Under the pieces are notes generated by a model that ran no database searches, had not been told where the DNA came from, and worked only from the letters and a program-made list of their open reading frames with translations. Source: Gloeomargarita sp. SKYB120 (GTDB lineage Bacteria > Cyanobacteriota > Cyanobacteriia > Gloeomargaritales > Gloeomargaritaceae). From it: 64,000 nucleotides of DNA. The stretch is from positions 1 through 64,000 of the forward strand of contig JANXAM010000001.1 in the NCBI GenBank assembly GCA_025062155.1, read 5' to 3'. Positions within the stretch are counted from its first letter, which is position 1. Every line of letters starts with the position of its first letter. Shown piece by piece: positions 48,601 through 56,856 of the stretch. Position numbers and translations under genes: made by a program.

Positions 48601-49890
48601 ATGAAGCGGGTGTTGGCAATCATTCTGGGCGGGGGCGCAGGAACACGGCTTTATCCCTTGACCAAACTGCGGGCAAAACCGGCGGTTCCCCTGGCGGGCA
48701 AGTACCGGCTGATTGATATTCCCATCAGCAATTGCATCAACTCTGAGATTCACAAGATTTATGTGTTGACCCAGTACAACTCGGCGTCCCTGAACCGGCA
48801 CCTCAACCGCACCTACGTCTTTGCAGGTTTTTTGGACGGGTTTGTGGAGGTGCTGGCAGCCCAGCAAACGCCCGACAATCCGGGGTGGTTCCAGGGGACA
48901 GCAGACGCGGTGCGCCAGTACATGTGGCTGTTTGAAACCTGGGACGTGGACCAGTATCTGATTCTGTCGGGGGACCATCTTTACCGCATGGACTACCGGG
49001 AATTCATCGGGCATCACATCCGCACCGGCGCGGACATTACCCTGTCGGTGATCCCGGTGGAGGAAAAGCGGGCGACGGCCTTTGGACTGATGAAAATTGA
49101 CGAGACCGGGCGGGTTGTTGCGTTCCGGGAAAAACCCAAGGGGGATGCCCTCTACGAGATGCGGGTGGATACCACCAAGCTGGGGCTGCCGCTTGAGGAG
49201 GCCCTGCGCAAACCCTACATTGCCTCCATGGGGATTTACGTCTTCAACAAAGACATTCTCAAGAAACTCTTGATGGAGGACCCCAGCCGCACCGACTTTG
49301 GCAAAGAAGTGATCCCTGCCGCCATCAAGGACTACAACATTCAGGTCTATTTGTTCACCGACTATTGGGAAGACATCGGCACCATTGAATCGTTTTATGA
49401 GGCGAATTTGGCCCTGACCAAGCAACCCAATCCCCCCTTTAGTTTCTACGATGAAAAGGCGCCGATTTATACCCGCTCCCGCTATTTGCCCCCTTCCAAA
49501 CTCTTAAACTGTGAGATTGTGGAATCGCTGGTGAGCGAGGGCTGCATTTTAAAAGAGTGCCGAGTGCGCCATTCGGTGCTGGGGATACGTTCCCGGATTC
49601 AATCCGGTTGTGTGATTGAAGACACGTTGGTGATGGGAGCAGACTACTACGAACCCTACGAGCAACGGTTTCCCGACCCGCTAGACTCCCATATCCCCGT
49701 GGGCATCGGTGAAAATACGGTGATCCGCCGCTCGATTGTGGACAAGAATGCTCGCATCGGGCGCGACGTGCAGATTATCAACAAAGACTGGGTACAGGAG
49801 GCGGACCGGGAAGCCCTAGGGTTCTACATCCGCAACGGCATCGTGGTGGTGATCAAAAACGCAACGATTCCCGACGGCACAATTATCTAG
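48601..49890 (+). CDS. glgC: Glucose-1-phosphate adenylyltransferase (ADP-glucose pyrophosphorylase)
   Basis: Makes ADP-glucose for glycogen, the rate-controlling step. The 429-residue protein has the N-terminal [32 protein letters not shown] signature split as [20 protein letters not shown] and [14 protein letters not shown], then [39 protein letters not shown] and the C-terminal left-handed helix ending [17 protein letters not shown]. Residues for 3-phosphoglycerate activation lie in the C-terminal region. AAGGGAGGT precedes the ATG. The 3' end overlaps the anti-sigma gene by 8 bp. Confidence 0.96.
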
Positions 49891-50320
49891 CCCGTTCCCG
49901 CAGCTGGGCCGGAATCACCACCGGCGGCTGCTCCAGCGTGATCCGCAAAACCCGTTGGGGGTCTGGATACTGCGCTAGTTCCGGGGTTGGGGGCCGCCAG
50001 AGCAGGCCGGAGAGAACACCCCCTACTAGCGCCGAGGCCGCCACAAGTACCCCGCTCCAAACCAAGCGTTTACGAGCGCGGCGGCTCAGGCGAGTTATCA
50101 CCCCCGCCACGACCTCATCGGCGGACATCCCCAGCGGGGGCGCGGGTAATGCCTGACAGCATTCGTGCAGGTGGACCAACTGGCGGTAGAGCTGCTGGGT
50201 TTCGGGGTCGGTGGTCAACCAGTATTCCACTAGGGCGCGCTCTTCGGGACTGGCTTCCCCGTCGAGGTAGGCGCTCACCAGTTCAAAACGGTCGAGAGAC
50301 TCAGGACGGGTAATCGGCAT
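49883..50320 (-). CDS. Membrane anti-sigma factor, zinc-finger-less type
   Basis: 145 residues. The N-terminal cytoplasmic domain ([38 protein letters not shown]) is a ZAS-like anti-sigma helix bundle; a single HECC (54-57) is present but the classical HX3CX2C is not. One transmembrane helix ([22 protein letters not shown]) and a short periplasmic tail follow. It lies 24 bp downstream of the sigma gene and is co-directional, as for SigG and its anti-sigma in other cyanobacteria. The start is the ATG at 50320. Confidence 0.8.
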
Positions 50321-50359
50321 AGGCGAAAGCGGCACACCCGCTACTACTATGGCACAAAA

Positions 50360-51004
50360 CTAGCTGTCGAGGTAGGGCTTGAGTTGCATCTGCAGACGCG
50401 CGCGTGCACGGGCAATGCGGGATTTGACTGTTCCCAGAGACGTCCCCGTGATCTCGGCAATTTCCTCGTAGGCCAGACCGTCCAACTCCCGCAGGATGAT
50501 GGTAGTGCGAAACACCTCCGGCAACTCGGCGATGGCCCGTTGCAGGCGCTCGTAAAACTCCTGGGTCGCCAGGTCATCACCTGGACCTGGCCCGTCGCTG
50601 GCAACATCCCAGTCCATTTCCGCATGGCCCATCTGGCGGGGGGCGTCCAAGGAAACCGTAGCCTGCTGGCGCTTGCGGCGGCGCAGTTCGTCGTAAAAGA
50701 GATTGGTGGCAATCCGGCTTAACCAACTCCTAAACTTCTTGGGGTCCTGGAGTCGTTTAATATGGCGGTAGGCTCGCACCCACACCTCTTGGACAAGGTC
50801 GGCGCGGTCTTGCCAGTCGGCGGCCAAGTGGTACAAAAGGCGTTCCACGTGGGTCTGATGGCGGCGCACCAGTTCCGTGAAGGCGGCGCGGTCGGGTTGA
50901 AACCCCTGTTGGCAACGACAGACCAACTCCTCGGTTGACAGTTTGCCCACAGGCACAGACGGCACCTCAAAGCGGGACCAAGAGGCAGACAACGTCGGAT
51001 TCAT
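50360..51004 (-). CDS. sigG: ECF-like sigma factor, SigG type
   Basis: 214 residues, a group 3/ECF sigma factor. Region 2 includes AFTELVRRHQTHVERLLYHL, DLVQEVWVRAYRHIKRLQDP and FRSWLSRIATNLFYDELRRRKR. Region 4 includes IAELPEVFRTTIILRELDGLAYEEIAEITGTSLGTVKSRIARAR (helix-turn-helix). It precedes its anti-sigma gene. SigG controls envelope and thylakoid membrane stress in other cyanobacteria. It is divergent from the phospholipase D gene with 41 bp between the starts, so both promoters overlap. Confidence 0.85.
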   Translation of the reverse strand: MNPTLSASWSRFEVPSVPVGKLSTEELVCRCQQGFQPDRAAFTELVRRHQTHVERLLYHLAADWQDRADLVQEVWVRAYRHIKRLQDPKKFRSWLSRIATNLFYDELRRRKRQQATVSLDAPRQMGHAEMDWDVASDGPGPGDDLATQEFYERLQRAIAELPEVFRTTIILRELDGLAYEEIAEITGTSLGTVKSRIARARARLQMQLKPYLDS

Positions 51005-51045: not shown

Positions 51046-52467
51046 ATGGCCTGGCCCAAGTTCCTGCGCGTTATTTCCATCTTAATCCTGACGGCGGTTC
51101 CCCTTGGCTGCGGCTTGCGTCCTCGGGTGCGTCCCTTGCCCCAGGACCCGGCCATCCAGGCCTATTTCAATCAATCCCAAGCCGCTGTTTACCGCGACCC
51201 CTACCGCAAAGCGGTCCCCAGCCGCTACGGCGATAACTTCGAGGCGATTATTCTGCAGGAGATCGAGAACGCCACCCGTTCCATAGACGTGGCGGTGCAG
51301 GAAATTCGGTTGCCCCTGGTCGCCAAGGCCCTGGTGAGAAAGCACCAGGCGGGGGTGCGGGTGCGCGTGATTTTAGAAAACACCTACAACGTGGCCCTGA
51401 GCCAGCTCACTGAAGCGCAGGTGGATGAACTCAACCCCCATAGCCGCAGCCGCTACGAAGAGGTCTTTAAACTCATCGACACCAATGGCGATGGACGGCT
51501 CAGCCCGGATGAGGTCAACAATGGCGACGCCATCATCATCCTGCAAAACGGCAACGTGCCCCTAATTGACGACACCGCCGATGGGTCCAAAGGCAGCGGC
51601 CTGATGCACCACAAGTTCATGGTTTTTGACGACCGGCGGGTGCTGGTGACCTCGGCCAACTTCACCACCAGCGATATGCACGGGGATTTTGGTTCCCCAG
51701 AAAGTCGCGGCAACCCGAATGCGCTGCTGGTCATTGATAGTCCCGAGGTAGCCCGCCTATTTATCGAGGAATTTAATTTCATGTGGGGAGACGGACCGGG
51801 CGGCGCCACCGACAGCCGCTTTGGGATTCAAAAACCCCTGCGCGCGCCCCAGACGCTCAACCTCGGAAGTGGCACAGTCACGGTGATGTTTTCCCCGGCG
51901 CGGCGACGCCAGTGGCACCAAAGCACTAACGCTCTGATTGCCGAAACCTTAAGCCAAGCCCAGCGCAGCATTGACCTGGCGCTGTTTGTGTTTTCGGAAC
52001 AACCGCTGGTGGACGCGATGGAACCCCTGACCGCCAAGGGCGTGCGGATCCGGGCGTTGATCGAGCCGGATTTCGCCTACAAGTACTACAGCGAGGCGCT
52101 CGATATGTGGGGGATCGCCTTACCCCGCAAAGGCACCTGCAAGTACGAACCCAACAATGCTCCCTGGTCTAATCCGGTGCGGGAGGTGGGCGTGCCCAAA
52201 TTGCCCAAGGGCGACCGGTTACACCACAAATTCGGCCTGATTGATAACTACATCGTCATCGTTGGTTCCCACAACTGGACGCCCTCGGGGAATCACAATA
52301 ACGATGAAACGCTACTGGTGATTCGCAATGCCACCGTCGCAGCCCACTTCCAGCGGGAGTTTGAGCGCCTGATGCAAAAGGTGGAACTGGGACCGCCAGG
52401 CTGGTTGCTCAAGGCCGTGAAGGAAGCCGACCAAACCTGCGGGGGCCTTGCCCATCCCTATCGCTAG
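51046..52467 (+). CDS. Phospholipase D family lipoprotein with an inserted EF-hand
   Basis: 473 residues. Lipobox VPLGC puts Cys22 at the lipidated end. Two HKD motifs are complete: H188-H189-K190...D195 (HHKFMVFDD) and H393-H394-K395...D400 (HHKFGLID). Between the start of the first half and its HKD is a canonical EF-hand loop D145-E156 (DTNGDGRLSPDE), within KLIDTNGDGRLSPDEVNNG. PLD enzymes hydrolyse phosphodiester bonds in lipids or nucleic acids; this one faces the periplasm. Calcium binding could gate it. It is divergent from the SigG-like gene, so envelope-stress control is plausible. Confidence 0.85.
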   Translation: MAWPKFLRVISILILTAVPLGCGLRPRVRPLPQDPAIQAYFNQSQAAVYRDPYRKAVPSRYGDNFEAIILQEIENATRSIDVAVQEIRLPLVAKALVRKHQAGVRVRVILENTYNVALSQLTEAQVDELNPHSRSRYEEVFKLIDTNGDGRLSPDEVNNGDAIIILQNGNVPLIDDTADGSKGSGLMHHKFMVFDDRRVLVTSANFTTSDMHGDFGSPESRGNPNALLVIDSPEVARLFIEEFNFMWGDGPGGATDSRFGIQKPLRAPQTLNLGSGTVTVMFSPARRRQWHQSTNALIAETLSQAQRSIDLALFVFSEQPLVDAMEPLTAKGVRIRALIEPDFAYKYYSEALDMWGIALPRKGTCKYEPNNAPWSNPVREVGVPKLPKGDRLHHKFGLIDNYIVIVGSHNWTPSGNHNNDETLLVIRNATVAAHFQREFERLMQKVELGPPGWLLKAVKEADQTCGGLAHPYR

Positions 52468-52626: not shown

Positions 52627-54561
52627 GTGAAACGGTTGGTCTGGGCGGTGGGGGTGGTGGGGCTGGGCGTTTTACCCGCCCACGCGCAGCCAGTGCGTAC
52701 CCTCCAGCGGATTCCCCTGCGCAACTTGGGTTACACCCGTCCGGTGGTATTGCGGGGGCCGAATCCCGAATTCGGTGTGAGTCTTCCCCTCTTGAGTCGC
52801 AATTTGGATACCAAGCAAAGTTTTGTGCAATTGGAATTGGCCCCTTCGCCGGTGTTGCGACCCAATTCCACCGTGCGCGTTTTGGTCAACGGTCGTCCAG
52901 AGCGCGTGTTTTTGGTGAAGGATTTGTTGCCCCAAAAAAGCGTGCGGATTCCGTTGCGGTTGCCGCCACCGGGGGAGCAGTTCCTGTCGGTGGAAGTGCA
53001 GGGATATTTGCGAATCAGCCAGAATTTTTGTGACGACGCCGCTTCGGGCAATTTGTTTTTGACGGTTGGGGAAAACAGTTTTTTCCAGCTTGCCCAGACG
53101 GAGACTGCCCCACCCATTAACGGCTGGTTTCGCCCGACCTACAACCGGGTGGCGCTGGTGGTGCCTCCCCAGATGGACGCCGCAACCACGCAAGCCGCGC
53201 TCTGGCTGTACAGTGTGCTCAGCTATCACTTTCGGGACACGCGGGTGCCAGTGCAGTGGTTCGCTGGGGATGTCGCCGCCCTGAAGTTGGACCCAAAGGT
53301 GGACGGGGTGGTGCTGTTGCACCGGGACGCCCAAGCGCCCGATATCCATCGGCAAGGGAACCGGCTGCGGGTCAAGGCGCGACCGGAGGTGATACGTGCC
53401 CTGATGGAACTGCAACCGGCCTTTGTCGCTCCCGATGTGCGCGTCGTAGCCGCCGACGCTCCCTCTGCTCCACCGACGCGAAACCGGCGGTTGTTTGCGG
53501 AATTGGGCTGGCCGGAAACCGTTAAGACGGGCCTGGGAAATCAGAGTTTTCGCCTGACGTTTGATTTGGCCCAGTTGGGTGGACGACCACGGGACTTGGC
53601 GCTGGCGTTGCGGTCGCGGTTTGGGCAAATGAGCGAGCGGGACCGGCGGGCCCTGAGCGCCCAGATTTTCTTTAACGGCGCGCTGGTCAACAGTTTTAAT
53701 GTGGGTACGGACACCCAGTTGAACGTCACCCTGGCGCTGCCGGAGCGGCGCATCCGGCGGGTCAATCACCTGGACCTGGTATTTAGCGCAACCCAGGAGG
53801 AGTACTGCCGTTTCCCCAGCCCGCTGACGGTGCAGGTGCTCGGTTCCTCCTACCTGGACTGGACGGGTTACCAGCCCCCGCGCGGGACGTTCGACGATGT
53901 GCCCCAGGCGTTTTTGGGCCAGGGGCAGGTGGTGGTGGATACGGGCAACCCTGCAGTGGTAGCGGGCACGGCTCAAGTGCTGGGGATGCTCAGCCGCTTG
54001 GGGAAACGACCGCTGCTTCCCCAGGTGGTGCCGGCCAGCGAGATCACCGACTGGAACAATTTACCGGGACGACCGGCATGGCGGTTAGTGGGTACAGGGC
54101 CGCAGACGCCCTTCAACAGTCCGATTCGCCTGGGCCAGGACTTTGTCATTCTCAATCCCGTCAATCAAAAACCCCTGTTGCAAGCTCAACTGGGCGCCAG
54201 TATCGGCGTACTCCAAGCCTTTTTGCACCAGGGCGCGCCAACCCTATGGTTATCCTGGTGGGGAAATGCAACGGATGTCGTCGCTCGGACCGGCGCAGTT
54301 TTAGCTGACCCAATTGCGGGTTGGGGCCATCAACTGCAGGGGAATGTGGCGACGGTGACGCCCCAAGGCACTGTGGAGATGTGGGACCTGACAGGCGAGA
54401 CCCTGGAGGTGCGCTATCCCGCTGAGCTAAATTGGTGGTTGGTCCTGCGCCGCTACCGCTGGGTGTTGCTGGCGCTGTTTTTGGTCTTTGGCGGTCTGGC
54501 GGCTTGGCGCTTGTACCGGCGCCTAGGTCAGCCTCCAAAACCCCCGACGCCTCCTTCCTAA
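52627..54561 (+). CDS. BcsB-like cellulose synthase regulatory subunit
   Basis: 644 residues. A signal peptide (MKRLVWAVGVVGLGVLPAHA) leads to a large periplasmic region with PLRNLGYTRPVVLRGPNPEF, ELAPSPVLRPNSTVRVLVNG, GYLRISQNFCDDAASGNLFL, LTFDLAQLGGRPRDLALAL and QEEYCRFPSPLTV, and a C-terminal transmembrane helix (WVLLALFLVFGGLAAWRLY). This matches BcsB-type subunits that bind the emerging polysaccharide and anchor the synthase. The start is GTG at 52627. The GT2 gene follows after 3 bp, so the two form an exopolysaccharide unit. Confidence 0.8.
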   Translation: MKRLVWAVGVVGLGVLPAHAQPVRTLQRIPLRNLGYTRPVVLRGPNPEFGVSLPLLSRNLDTKQSFVQLELAPSPVLRPNSTVRVLVNGRPERVFLVKDLLPQKSVRIPLRLPPPGEQFLSVEVQGYLRISQNFCDDAASGNLFLTVGENSFFQLAQTETAPPINGWFRPTYNRVALVVPPQMDAATTQAALWLYSVLSYHFRDTRVPVQWFAGDVAALKLDPKVDGVVLLHRDAQAPDIHRQGNRLRVKARPEVIRALMELQPAFVAPDVRVVAADAPSAPPTRNRRLFAELGWPETVKTGLGNQSFRLTFDLAQLGGRPRDLALALRSRFGQMSERDRRALSAQIFFNGALVNSFNVGTDTQLNVTLALPERRIRRVNHLDLVFSATQEEYCRFPSPLTVQVLGSSYLDWTGYQPPRGTFDDVPQAFLGQGQVVVDTGNPAVVAGTAQVLGMLSRLGKRPLLPQVVPASEITDWNNLPGRPAWRLVGTGPQTPFNSPIRLGQDFVILNPVNQKPLLQAQLGASIGVLQAFLHQGAPTLWLSWWGNATDVVARTGAVLADPIAGWGHQLQGNVATVTPQGTVEMWDLTGETLEVRYPAELNWWLVLRRYRWVLLALFLVFGGLAAWRLYRRLGQPPKPPTPPS

Positions 54562-54564
54562 GTC

Positions 54565-56856
54565 ATGCAGCCGTTTGACCCCGCCGCGCTGGTCACTGCG
54601 GGTTTGCTGACACCGGAGCAATGGCAACAGCTCCAGCCGCGCCTTAGGGATTGCCCATTGCGGGACGCTTTGAAAGAATTGGGGATAACCGAGAGCGCCT
54701 ACATCACTGTGCGGGCCAGGCTGACAGGGGAACCATTACTCCGGGATTGGCTGAAGAACCACCGCTTGGATTTGGGGCTGAGTCACGCACGTCCACCCTA
54801 TTACTGGAGTCAAACAGAGCTATTTCCCTGTGCCTGGCGAGATGAACGCACGCTCCTTGTGGCGGTGACCGACCAGAGCCACTTTCACGCCCAGACCATT
54901 ATCGAGCACATTTGGCCTCACGCACGGGTGGAACCCCTGTTGGCGACGGCGACGGAAATTGCCCGCTTGGTCGTGAGTTTGCACCTGGGGAAAAAATTGA
55001 TTGAATTGGGAATGCTCAACCGTCAACAGTGGCAAGATGTTCTGGAAATTTACCGGCGCACTGGCTCTCCCGTTGGCCAAATCCTGACTCGCCTGGATTA
55101 CGTACGACCTCAAGCCCTGCTGCAGGTGCTGGCGGAACTCACGGGCTGTCCCAGCTATTCCAAGCTCATCGGCACGCCCGCTTGGTCAATGGATGAACAA
55201 CTGGTGCGGCGGTTTGACCCTCAAGTGATGGTACGGCGGTTGTTTATTCCCCTAGGCTGGATTGATGACCAAACCCTGCTGGTGATGGTGCAAGACCCGC
55301 TAGATATTCACGTGGATGCCGAAATTCACCAGCAATTTCCGGCGGTGCAAATCACCAAAGTCCTGGGCACCGAAAGCGATGTGACCTACCTGCTGGATTC
55401 GGTGTTTCGCCAGTTGTGGAGCTGGCAAGCGGTGTACCGGCTGTTGGCTCGCTCGCCGCGGGAATCCGCCGCCCAAGTTTTTACAGCAGCCCAAATTTTC
55501 AGCCTGTATGCGCTCGGAGCGGTCTTTCTCTGGGGCCTGCTCAACGACACGTCCCTCACCCTGGCGATTGCGCTATCTGGGATCAACGTGTTTTACATTG
55601 CCGCTATTGGCTTCAAACTGCTGTTGAGTTTGGTGGGAGCGGTAGACCGCAAGCAGTATATCTCTAAAGAAGAAATTGCCCAGTTAAAAGATGAGGAATT
55701 GCCGGTTTATACCATCCTGGTGCCCGTTTATAACGAGCCAGCCATTGTGTCCATGTTGATCAAAGGGCTAGGGCAGTTGGATTACCCCAAAGAAAAACTG
55801 GATGTGCTGCTACTTCTGGAAGAAAACGACCGGGTGACCATTGAAGCGGCCAAAGCCGCCAATCCCCCCCACTACATTCGCTTCATTTACATTCCCGACA
55901 GCAAACCCAAAACCAAGCCCAAGGCGTGCAATTACGGCTTGGCCTTTGCTCAGGGACAGTATTTAACCATTTACGACGCCGAAGATTTGCCCGACCCCGA
56001 CCAACTTAAAAAAGCCATCATCGCCTTTCGCAAGGGGCCGCCTAACTTGGTGTGCGTGCAGGCGGCGCTCAATTACTTCAACCGGGACGAAAACTTCCTG
56101 ACCCGCATGTTCACGCTAGAGTACTCCTACTGGTTTGACTATCTACTGCCGGGGTTGGACCGCCTGGGTTTGCCGATTCCGCTGGGAGGAACTAGCAACC
56201 ACTTCCGCACGGACCGGTTGTTGGAGCTGGGAGGCTGGGACCCGTTTAACGTGACGGAGGATGCCGACTTAGGCATTCGCGCCAGCCAACGGGGCTACCG
56301 CGTCGGCGTGATTGATTCGACGACCTATGAGGAAGCCAACTGTCGCCTAAAAAACTGGATTCGCCAGCGCTCTCGCTGGATCAAGGGGTATATGCAGACT
56401 TGGCTGGTGCATAACCGCGACCCCTGGCGCTCCCTGCGCACGTTGGGTTTGGCGAACTGGCTAGCCTACCAATTTTTTGTGGGCGGCACGGTGGTTTGTT
56501 TCCTGAGCAATCCCATCCTTTGGCTTCTGTTTATTTATGCGATGATTTGGCGTACTCCCTGGCTGGAGCAGTTGTTCCCGGGCTGGGTCTTGTACATTTC
56601 CCTGTTTAATTTGATCCTGGGCAACAGCATCGGGATTTATCTCAATATGATTGCGGTCTTTCGCCGGCGGTACTACGGTTTAACCCCCTATGCCCTGCTC
56701 AATCCGGTGTATTGGTTGTTGCATTCGACGGCGGCCTACATGGCTCTGTGGCAGTTGTTCACCAAACCCTTTTATTGGGAAAAAACGGTTCACGGCCTGA
56801 GTAAAATGACCCCCCACACGTCCCTAGCCAAACCACCACAACCACAGGGGCACTAG
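54565..56856 (+). CDS. GT2 glycosyltransferase with MshEN-like N-terminal domains (XagB/BcsA-like)
   Basis: 763 residues. The N-terminus has two MshEN/GspE_N-like domains (about 6-58 and 138-190): LVTAGLLTPEQWQQLQPRLRD and LGKKLIELGMLNRQQWQDVL, then GQILTRLDYVRPQALLQVL. Then come two transmembrane helices, the GT2 core (VPVYNEPAIVSML, YDAEDLPDPD with DxD near 472, VTEDADLG, QRSRW at 601-605) and four or so C-terminal helices. MshEN domains bind c-di-GMP in some secretion ATPases. With BcsB-like upstream, this is probably a beta-glucan or related synthase. The product is not identifiable. Confidence 0.82.
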   Translation: MQPFDPAALVTAGLLTPEQWQQLQPRLRDCPLRDALKELGITESAYITVRARLTGEPLLRDWLKNHRLDLGLSHARPPYYWSQTELFPCAWRDERTLLVAVTDQSHFHAQTIIEHIWPHARVEPLLATATEIARLVVSLHLGKKLIELGMLNRQQWQDVLEIYRRTGSPVGQILTRLDYVRPQALLQVLAELTGCPSYSKLIGTPAWSMDEQLVRRFDPQVMVRRLFIPLGWIDDQTLLVMVQDPLDIHVDAEIHQQFPAVQITKVLGTESDVTYLLDSVFRQLWSWQAVYRLLARSPRESAAQVFTAAQIFSLYALGAVFLWGLLNDTSLTLAIALSGINVFYIAAIGFKLLLSLVGAVDRKQYISKEEIAQLKDEELPVYTILVPVYNEPAIVSMLIKGLGQLDYPKEKLDVLLLLEENDRVTIEAAKAANPPHYIRFIYIPDSKPKTKPKACNYGLAFAQGQYLTIYDAEDLPDPDQLKKAIIAFRKGPPNLVCVQAALNYFNRDENFLTRMFTLEYSYWFDYLLPGLDRLGLPIPLGGTSNHFRTDRLLELGGWDPFNVTEDADLGIRASQRGYRVGVIDSTTYEEANCRLKNWIRQRSRWIKGYMQTWLVHNRDPWRSLRTLGLANWLAYQFFVGGTVVCFLSNPILWLLFIYAMIWRTPWLEQLFPGWVLYISLFNLILGNSIGIYLNMIAVFRRRYYGLTPYALLNPVYWLLHSTAAYMALWQLFTKPFYWEKTVHGLSKMTPHTSLAKPPQPQGH

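Follow-up and report, generated by a model that had tools for sequence, protein, structure and literature searches.

What does an EF-hand do inside an enzyme of the phospholipase D (PLD) superfamily, and what does that enzyme cut? The question is raised by a gene of the cyanobacterium Gloeomargarita sp. SKYB120 that lies within the first 64,000 nucleotides of contig JANXAM010000001.1 (assembly GCA_025062155.1; this whole stretch is called the window). The gene (51046..52467, forward strand, ATG start) encodes a protein of 473 amino acids that an initial annotation described as a phospholipase lipoprotein, possibly calcium-gated, in an envelope-stress setting. The analysis retains most of the structural part of that description and points to a different function. 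The protein is, with fair probability, a membrane-anchored, extracytoplasmic, Ca2+-binding PLD-type nuclease of DNA uptake, and probably corresponds, in Gloeomargarita, to the nuclease portion of cyanobacterial ComA (a putative periplasmic nuclease module of the ComA type).

A Two-HKD Protein and Its Relatives

The PLD gene was found in 153 out of 386 genomes of the phylum (E ≤ 1e-20), every one of them within the class of the window, and is present in all eight Gloeomargaritales genomes examined. The nearest named relatives match at 89% (Gloeomargarita sp. SKYG116), 83% (Gloeomargaritales VI4D9), and 61% (Gloeomargaritaceae C42_A2020_066). An alignment of 75 rows (the window protein and 74 homologues, 28 family codes) was built from 80 loci after exclusion of L001, L036–L038 (duplicates), and L039–L040 (pieces of one gene). 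Seventy rows represent matching genomes (the window, the 29 genomes that score next highest, and 40 picked for family spread, including matches that start after the EF-hand loop) and five come from other searches. Since the remaining 83 matching genomes are unaligned and others were picked by hand, the row counts given below do not describe a random sample.

Both HKD motifs are intact, as initially annotated. In the first (HHKFMVFD, residues 188–195, 51607..51630) H188, K190, and D195 are each present in all 75 rows, and in the second (HHKFGLID, residues 393–400, 52222..52245) H393 is present in 75, K395 in 74, and D400 in 73 rows, the misses being alignment gaps. With two HxKxxxxD motifs and PF13091 (PLDc_2, 150.8 bits) matching in two stretches, the protein is a member of the two-HKD PLD superfamily. 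Two further open reading frames (ORFs) of the same genome match PLDc_2; inspection by eye suggests a polyphosphate kinase for one and, for the other, a coiled-coil protein whose single match is weak, and in neither was an HxKxxxxD motif seen. Two cysteines of the window protein, Cys365 (52138..52140) and Cys465 (52438..52440), are kept in 74/75 and 70/75 rows; a disulfide pair of the periplasmic type is possible and would fit their conservation.

A Conserved EF-Hand in the First Lobe

The first lobe contains an insert (residues 119–160, 51400..51525) that holds the EF-hand. Its 12-residue loop from D145 to E156 (DTNGDGRLSPDE, 51478..51513) carries ligands at positions 1, 3, 5, 9, and 12 and is separated by 31 residues from the histidine of the first HKD motif. 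The strict loop pattern occurs once in the window (stop-to-stop frames of at least 60 amino acids, 67,762 residues), which corroborates the canonical loop noticed initially. Two AlphaFold2 models both contain a helix-loop-helix at this position (helix 131–144, loop, helix 154–159 or 154–160); the second, made with seven sequences, has a mean predicted local distance difference test (pLDDT) of 74.8, a predicted template modeling score (pTM) of 0.80, and block means of 74–88 over residues 121–160. The segment thus combines a loop with five ligands and, in the second model, the helix-loop-helix of an EF-hand. Pfam matches to EF-hand_5, EF-hand_6, and EF-hand_1 (E = 3.6e-5 to 2e-4) all stay below the Pfam cut-offs, the best reaching 23.5 bits against a gathering score of 25.9 (EF-hand_5). 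The same holds for all three EF-positive proteins in which Pfam scored an EF-hand, and for a fourth (L088, see below) Pfam lists none at all.

Since the loop is canonical in 65 out of 75 rows, the objection that it might not be conserved among orthologs can be set aside; the EF part is gapped in eight rows and non-canonical in two (L014, and L059, which deviates at position 9 only). The mean entropy is 0.40 bits at the five ligand positions and 2.08 bits at the other 39 positions of residues 119–162 (67 rows with an ungapped loop), and random sets of five positions reached this level of conservation in 6e-5 of draws. In the available parts of the literature searched, no EF-hand was found reported for this PLD family.

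A Vibrio plasmid homologue (WP_021456969.1, 36.5% identity over 86% of the query) lacks the EF-hand insert in a direct alignment, and because of this the EF-hand looks like an old cyanobacterial trait that was added within the cyanobacteria, with this one outgroup as the basis. Eight plasmid records, all from Vibrio, carry homologues with a query coverage of at least 80%, and the PLD protein on a Vibrio coralliilyticus plasmid (L086, 2929–4380) has a C-terminal domain resembling a helix-hairpin-helix (HhH) and no EF-hand. A quick tree was computed from 73 rows (the fragments L057, L066, and L069 excluded, the Vibrio protein added; 15 of its 70 inner branches starred; HhH left unscored in L003, L054, and L062). 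It contains three EF changes, all inside the cyanobacteria, the Vibrio row having been scored as EF-positive by a misfiring gap rule where the direct alignment has no loop. This tree implies about three losses of the loop (family f13, part of f19, and L077), in lineages whose HKD motifs stayed.

These losses bear on the role of the calcium. An EF-hand that serves as a structural staple, holding Ca2+ constitutively and gating nothing, has slightly better than an even chance and is compatible with a nuclease of DNA uptake. Periplasmic Ca2+ is usually plentiful, the EF-hand is single, and about three lineages dropped the loop but kept their HKD motifs, all of which suits a staple; the strong conservation of the ligands elsewhere counts against it, though it fits either role. 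Gating by Ca2+ is possible, the structural role being at least as likely.

Two homologues were seen in a viral sequence collection. One (L088, 2902–4314; IMG/VR UViG_3300012986_000002) has an EF loop and no HhH, lies on a 35.5-kb contig next to ORFs named by eye as AlkB-like dioxygenases, and is perhaps a phage or plasmid copy. The other (L087, 1453–2673; IMG/VR UViG_3300034631_000070) resembles by eye the homologue of genome G062 (L057), ends at the second HKD motif, and probably represents a broken gene on a host contig.

Clues to the Substrate

The sequence families lean toward nucleases, though not cleanly. Nuclease NucT is the best NCBIfam match of the window protein, at 68.9 bits against a curated cut-off of 297 for the equivalog, and the cardiolipin synthase ClsB is far under its cut-off (22 vs. 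281 bits). The PDB chains matched by sequence are named mitochondrial cardiolipin hydrolase, NucT, and an endonuclease; the first we take to be piRNA-pathway nucleases of the mitoPLD/Zucchini type. NucT of Helicobacter, Nuc, and mitoPLD/Zucchini resemble the window protein as HKD enzymes of the PLD superfamily, but their PDB chains are ∼155–220 amino acids long, whereas the window protein combines two HKD lobes and an EF-hand in one chain.

The fold is that of a two-lobed PLD. The first AlphaFold2 model (pLDDT 63, pTM 0.72), with which both fold searches were run, aligns over residues 26–457 with phospholipase D 7e0m (Z = 26.3, root mean square deviation 3.6, 334 residues). VIA-align gave similar Z scores of ∼23–26 for 7e0m, vaccinia F13, phosphatidylserine synthase, and the single-stranded DNA (ssDNA) exonucleases PLD3/PLD4. 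With lipases, a synthase, vaccinia F13, and the PLD3/4 nucleases mixed among the top PDB matches, the fold was rejected as an arbiter of the substrate. PLD3 and PLD4, 5′ ssDNA exonucleases with a non-cytoplasmic active site, share the two-lobed HKD fold (Z ∼24) but are animal proteins with 16–18% identity over the aligned part and, to our knowledge, no EF-hand.

The strongest clue to what the enzyme acts on comes from domain fusions among its relatives. A ComEA-type HhH domain is encoded C-terminally in the same ORF in 34 out of 75 rows; in L054 and L062 the HhH lies in another downstream frame, and in L003 only the start of the domain is present. In L024 and L009, the two homologues scanned, the domain matches Pfam HHH_3 at 59.2 bits (4e-16) against a cut-off of 27, and among solved chains the HhH domain of L024 is closest to EEPD1 (9yi2), followed by the ComEA chains 8dfk, 2duy, and 8dss. 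The Vibrio homologue has a C-terminal HHH_3 match of 26.2 bits, just below the cut-off, and no match to an NCBIfam ComEA family; since it lacks the EF-hand, the fusion of PLD and HhH may be the older of the two.

These fusions count against the phospholipase of the initial annotation. A phospholipase or transphosphatidylase gated by calcium, with membrane lipids as its substrate, would fit the two-HKD fold and the similar Z scores (∼23–26) of 7e0m, phosphatidylserine synthases, and PLD3/PLD4, as well as the name of the best PDB sequence matches. The DNA-binding domain in 34 rows, the ClsB score, and the ties with ComEC described below argue against such an enzyme and make it improbable. An anti-phage defence nuclease resembling DrmC of the DISARM system is scarcely credible: PADLOC DrmC models score up to 64.3 bits and NCBIfam DrmC 67.6 bits, but the latter is half of the curated cut-off of 133, and the four neighbours scanned (sigma factor, anti-sigma factor, BcsB-like protein, and glycosyltransferase) are not a DISARM set.

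HhH domains also occur elsewhere in the genomes. In SKYB120, HHH_3 matches were found in a membrane protein of 232 amino acids with two HhH units, a PsbU-like protein, and a UvrC-like protein (names by eye); a stand-alone classic ComEA lipoprotein was not seen in this assembly, which is 96% complete. The window protein was not filed as ComEA, having no HhH domain. The 232-residue protein (L081, 1294–1992, contig C9 of the same genome; apparent membrane helices) is a possible DNA-binding partner. ORFs of ∼181–188 amino acids in three other genomes (L092, L095, and L096) also show HhH units. In genome G014, where the fusion is present, further HHH_3 matches lie in ORFs of 185 (two HhH units), 353, and 141 amino acids, the second of which looks lipoprotein-like by eye, contains a PsbU-like segment, and shows no HKD motif. 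A 350-residue ORF of genome G024 (L094) and an ORF of G014 (L091, 1347–2375) are lipoprotein-like, each having an HhH segment that resembles PsbU/ComEA and an extended C-terminal part. An HHH_3 match was absent from two of the 13 genomes searched, G272 among them.

Co-occurrence with ComEC

In the available text of PMC7690421, ComA of Synechocystis (slr0197) is needed for transformation and is described with periplasmic DNA-binding and endonuclease domains; Table 1 there lists “DNA binding and nuclease activity?”. According to the accessible part of PMC10667661, a comEA (slr0197) knockout (ORF of at least 844 bp) abolished gene transfer, and the excerpt of PMC3976300 names the Anabaena orthologue all3087. 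The combination of PLD and ComEA-type HhH in 34 rows is the likeness to this ComA/ComEA; the window protein differs by the lack of HhH and by its EF-hand, no mention of which was found in the accessible parts of the ComA literature.

The distribution of the PLD gene was compared with that of comEC. Within the class, 151 genomes contain both, four only ComEC, two only PLD, and at least 19 neither (Fisher p = 1.3e-19, with no account of kinship); for 15 further genomes without PLD or ComEC the class was not assignable. The ComEC-only genomes are G051, G157 (N-terminal piece kept), G264 (ComEC in a frame of 333 amino acids), and G326 (contig end), and the PLD-only genomes, G101 and G278, also lack PF03772. 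DprA, which is nearly universal (229/242, from another sample), was rejected as a co-occurrence marker and not used.

The excerpt of PMC8579336 reports that the C-terminal domain of Moorella ComEC is a Mn2+ nuclease in vitro and that transformation of B. subtilis suffers severely once this domain is inactivated; nearly half of ComECs are without it, and second-strand degradation in these is called open. The ComEC of SKYB120 (744 amino acids) gave no metallo-beta-lactamase match at a threshold as loose as E = 0.1 and matches TIGR00361 at 97.8 bits (cut-off 190) over profile positions 64–491 of 663. A survey that looked at metal motif II only (pattern [ST]H.[HD].DH) found it in none of 38 ComECs of the class (0/21 and 0/17 readable of 18; 35 PLD-positive, two PLD-negative, and one without PLD status), the unreadable split gene of G008 being dropped and a chance match in L135 without the first H counted as negative. 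Outside the class, motif II was present in 18 out of 24 ComECs (12/12 from one family and 6/12 from twelve other families); among the six without it, L146 has a short tail. The contrast between the class and the outside ComECs is strong, but loss of the ComEC motif and presence of the PLD gene are not a strict exchange. The PLD enzyme would share with the ComEC nuclease domain, as described in the excerpt of PMC8579336, the job of degrading the non-transforming strand, although the folds are unrelated.

The association with ComEC also bears on a secreted or surface nuclease that scavenges nucleotides and phosphate, similar to NucT and not specific to transformation. NucT is indeed the best NCBIfam family and 41 rows carry no HhH in the same ORF, but the co-occurrence counts against a scavenger, as does, if orthology holds, the need for ComA in transformation reported in the accessible literature; such a role is plausible but unlikely.

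Probable Membrane Anchor and Genomic Neighborhood

The lipobox of the initial annotation was only partly borne out. Residues 1–22 (51046..51111) form a hydrophobic signal or anchor stretch ending at C22, which is invariant in a seven-row alignment, but its VPLGC is non-canonical, with Pro at −3. A PROSITE-like lipobox pattern was matched by 42 out of 75 rows, with a looser cysteine setting in 19 and no cysteine in 14; start codons were chosen by script and some rows are fragments or have uncertain starts. All six rows of the genus Gloeomargarita fail the pattern. Since homologues carry a good lipobox at the same place, a membrane anchor in the window protein is likely.

On the reverse strand, divergent from the PLD gene at 41 bp, lies a gene for an extracytoplasmic function (ECF) sigma factor (50360..51004), followed by a candidate zf-HC2 anti-sigma factor (49883..50335), both recognized by Pfam and NCBIfam. 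The arrangement is as initially annotated; the name SigG given to the ECF-type factor has no backing. The pair adjoins the PLD gene in 8/8 Gloeomargaritales genomes and in none of 68 other loci (flanks of 1.5 kb in 27, ∼3 kb or less in 40, and 5 kb in one). Because it was found only in Gloeomargaritales, the linkage was dropped as a clue to the function of the family. An envelope-stress enzyme under the divergent sigma factor, as initially suggested, would agree with the constant pair in this order, yet its absence from the 68 other loci renders that role very improbable; the ECF sigma factor may nevertheless drive the PLD gene in Gloeomargaritales.

Downstream (52627–56856) are a BcsB-like protein and a GT2 glycosyltransferase whose transferase part is preceded by an MshEN domain, possibly an exopolysaccharide pair controlled by cyclic di-GMP (MshEN being of the c-di-GMP-binding type). 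The BcsB linkage is narrower than the sigma linkage (window, L002/L036, and L035).

Proposed Role in DNA Uptake

Several observations weigh against a nuclease of DNA uptake. The window protein lacks HhH, as do all seven aligned Gloeomargaritaceae rows, and 41 of the 75 rows, the window included, have none in the same ORF; G272, which contains PLD and ComEC, lacks any HHH_3 match. Among PDB sequences the closest matches are named after a lipid activity, mitochondrial cardiolipin hydrolase; the fold searches leave nuclease and lipase undistinguished, and the NCBIfam comE matches of L024 and L009 (9e-14 and 4e-14) are both under the curated cut-off. Because of the lipid-hydrolase name and the comE scores, confidence in the uptake role was slightly lowered. 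The published architecture of slr0197 fits the PLD-HhH rows by description, not by sequence comparison. Co-occurrence with ComEC is confounded by genome reduction, since the genomes without both genes are mostly small; the PLD-negative class genomes G051 and G157 also lack the ComEC motif, and 6/12 outside genomes of other families lack motif II and yet have no such PLD. A DprA match was missing from the SKYB120 genome, by either an assembly gap or loss, and was obtained from the other seven genomes of the order. We know of no natural competence in Gloeomargarita.

From the motifs, the conserved EF-hand, the HhH fusions, the co-occurrence with ComEC, and the absent ComEC motif we infer DNA as the substrate, an extracytoplasmic location, Ca2+ binding, and a role in uptake, with gating as a further possibility. 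Type IV pili would pull DNA into the periplasm, where, at the membrane, it would meet the PLD enzyme. The two HKD histidines would cut phosphodiesters via a covalent phosphohistidine, the chemistry of the PLD superfamily, which needs no metal, and one strand would pass through ComEC. The PLD enzyme would thereby supply the nuclease activity lost from the degenerate C-terminal domain of cyanobacterial ComEC, and the EF-hand of the first lobe would bind one periplasmic Ca2+ and hold or gate that lobe. In many relatives the C-terminal ComEA-type HhH would bind the DNA; as the Gloeomargarita copy has none, the DNA would be held there by the PLD lobes or by a partner.

The protein family described here is a concrete candidate for strand degradation where ComEC has no working nuclease domain, a point named as open in the available text of PMC8579336. 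If the proposed role is true, Ca2+ or a chelator would perhaps provide a cheap lever on transformation efficiency. Should the structural reading alone hold, the family would still offer a bacterial PLD with a conserved EF-hand, one that lies below the Pfam EF-hand cut-offs in the proteins scored.
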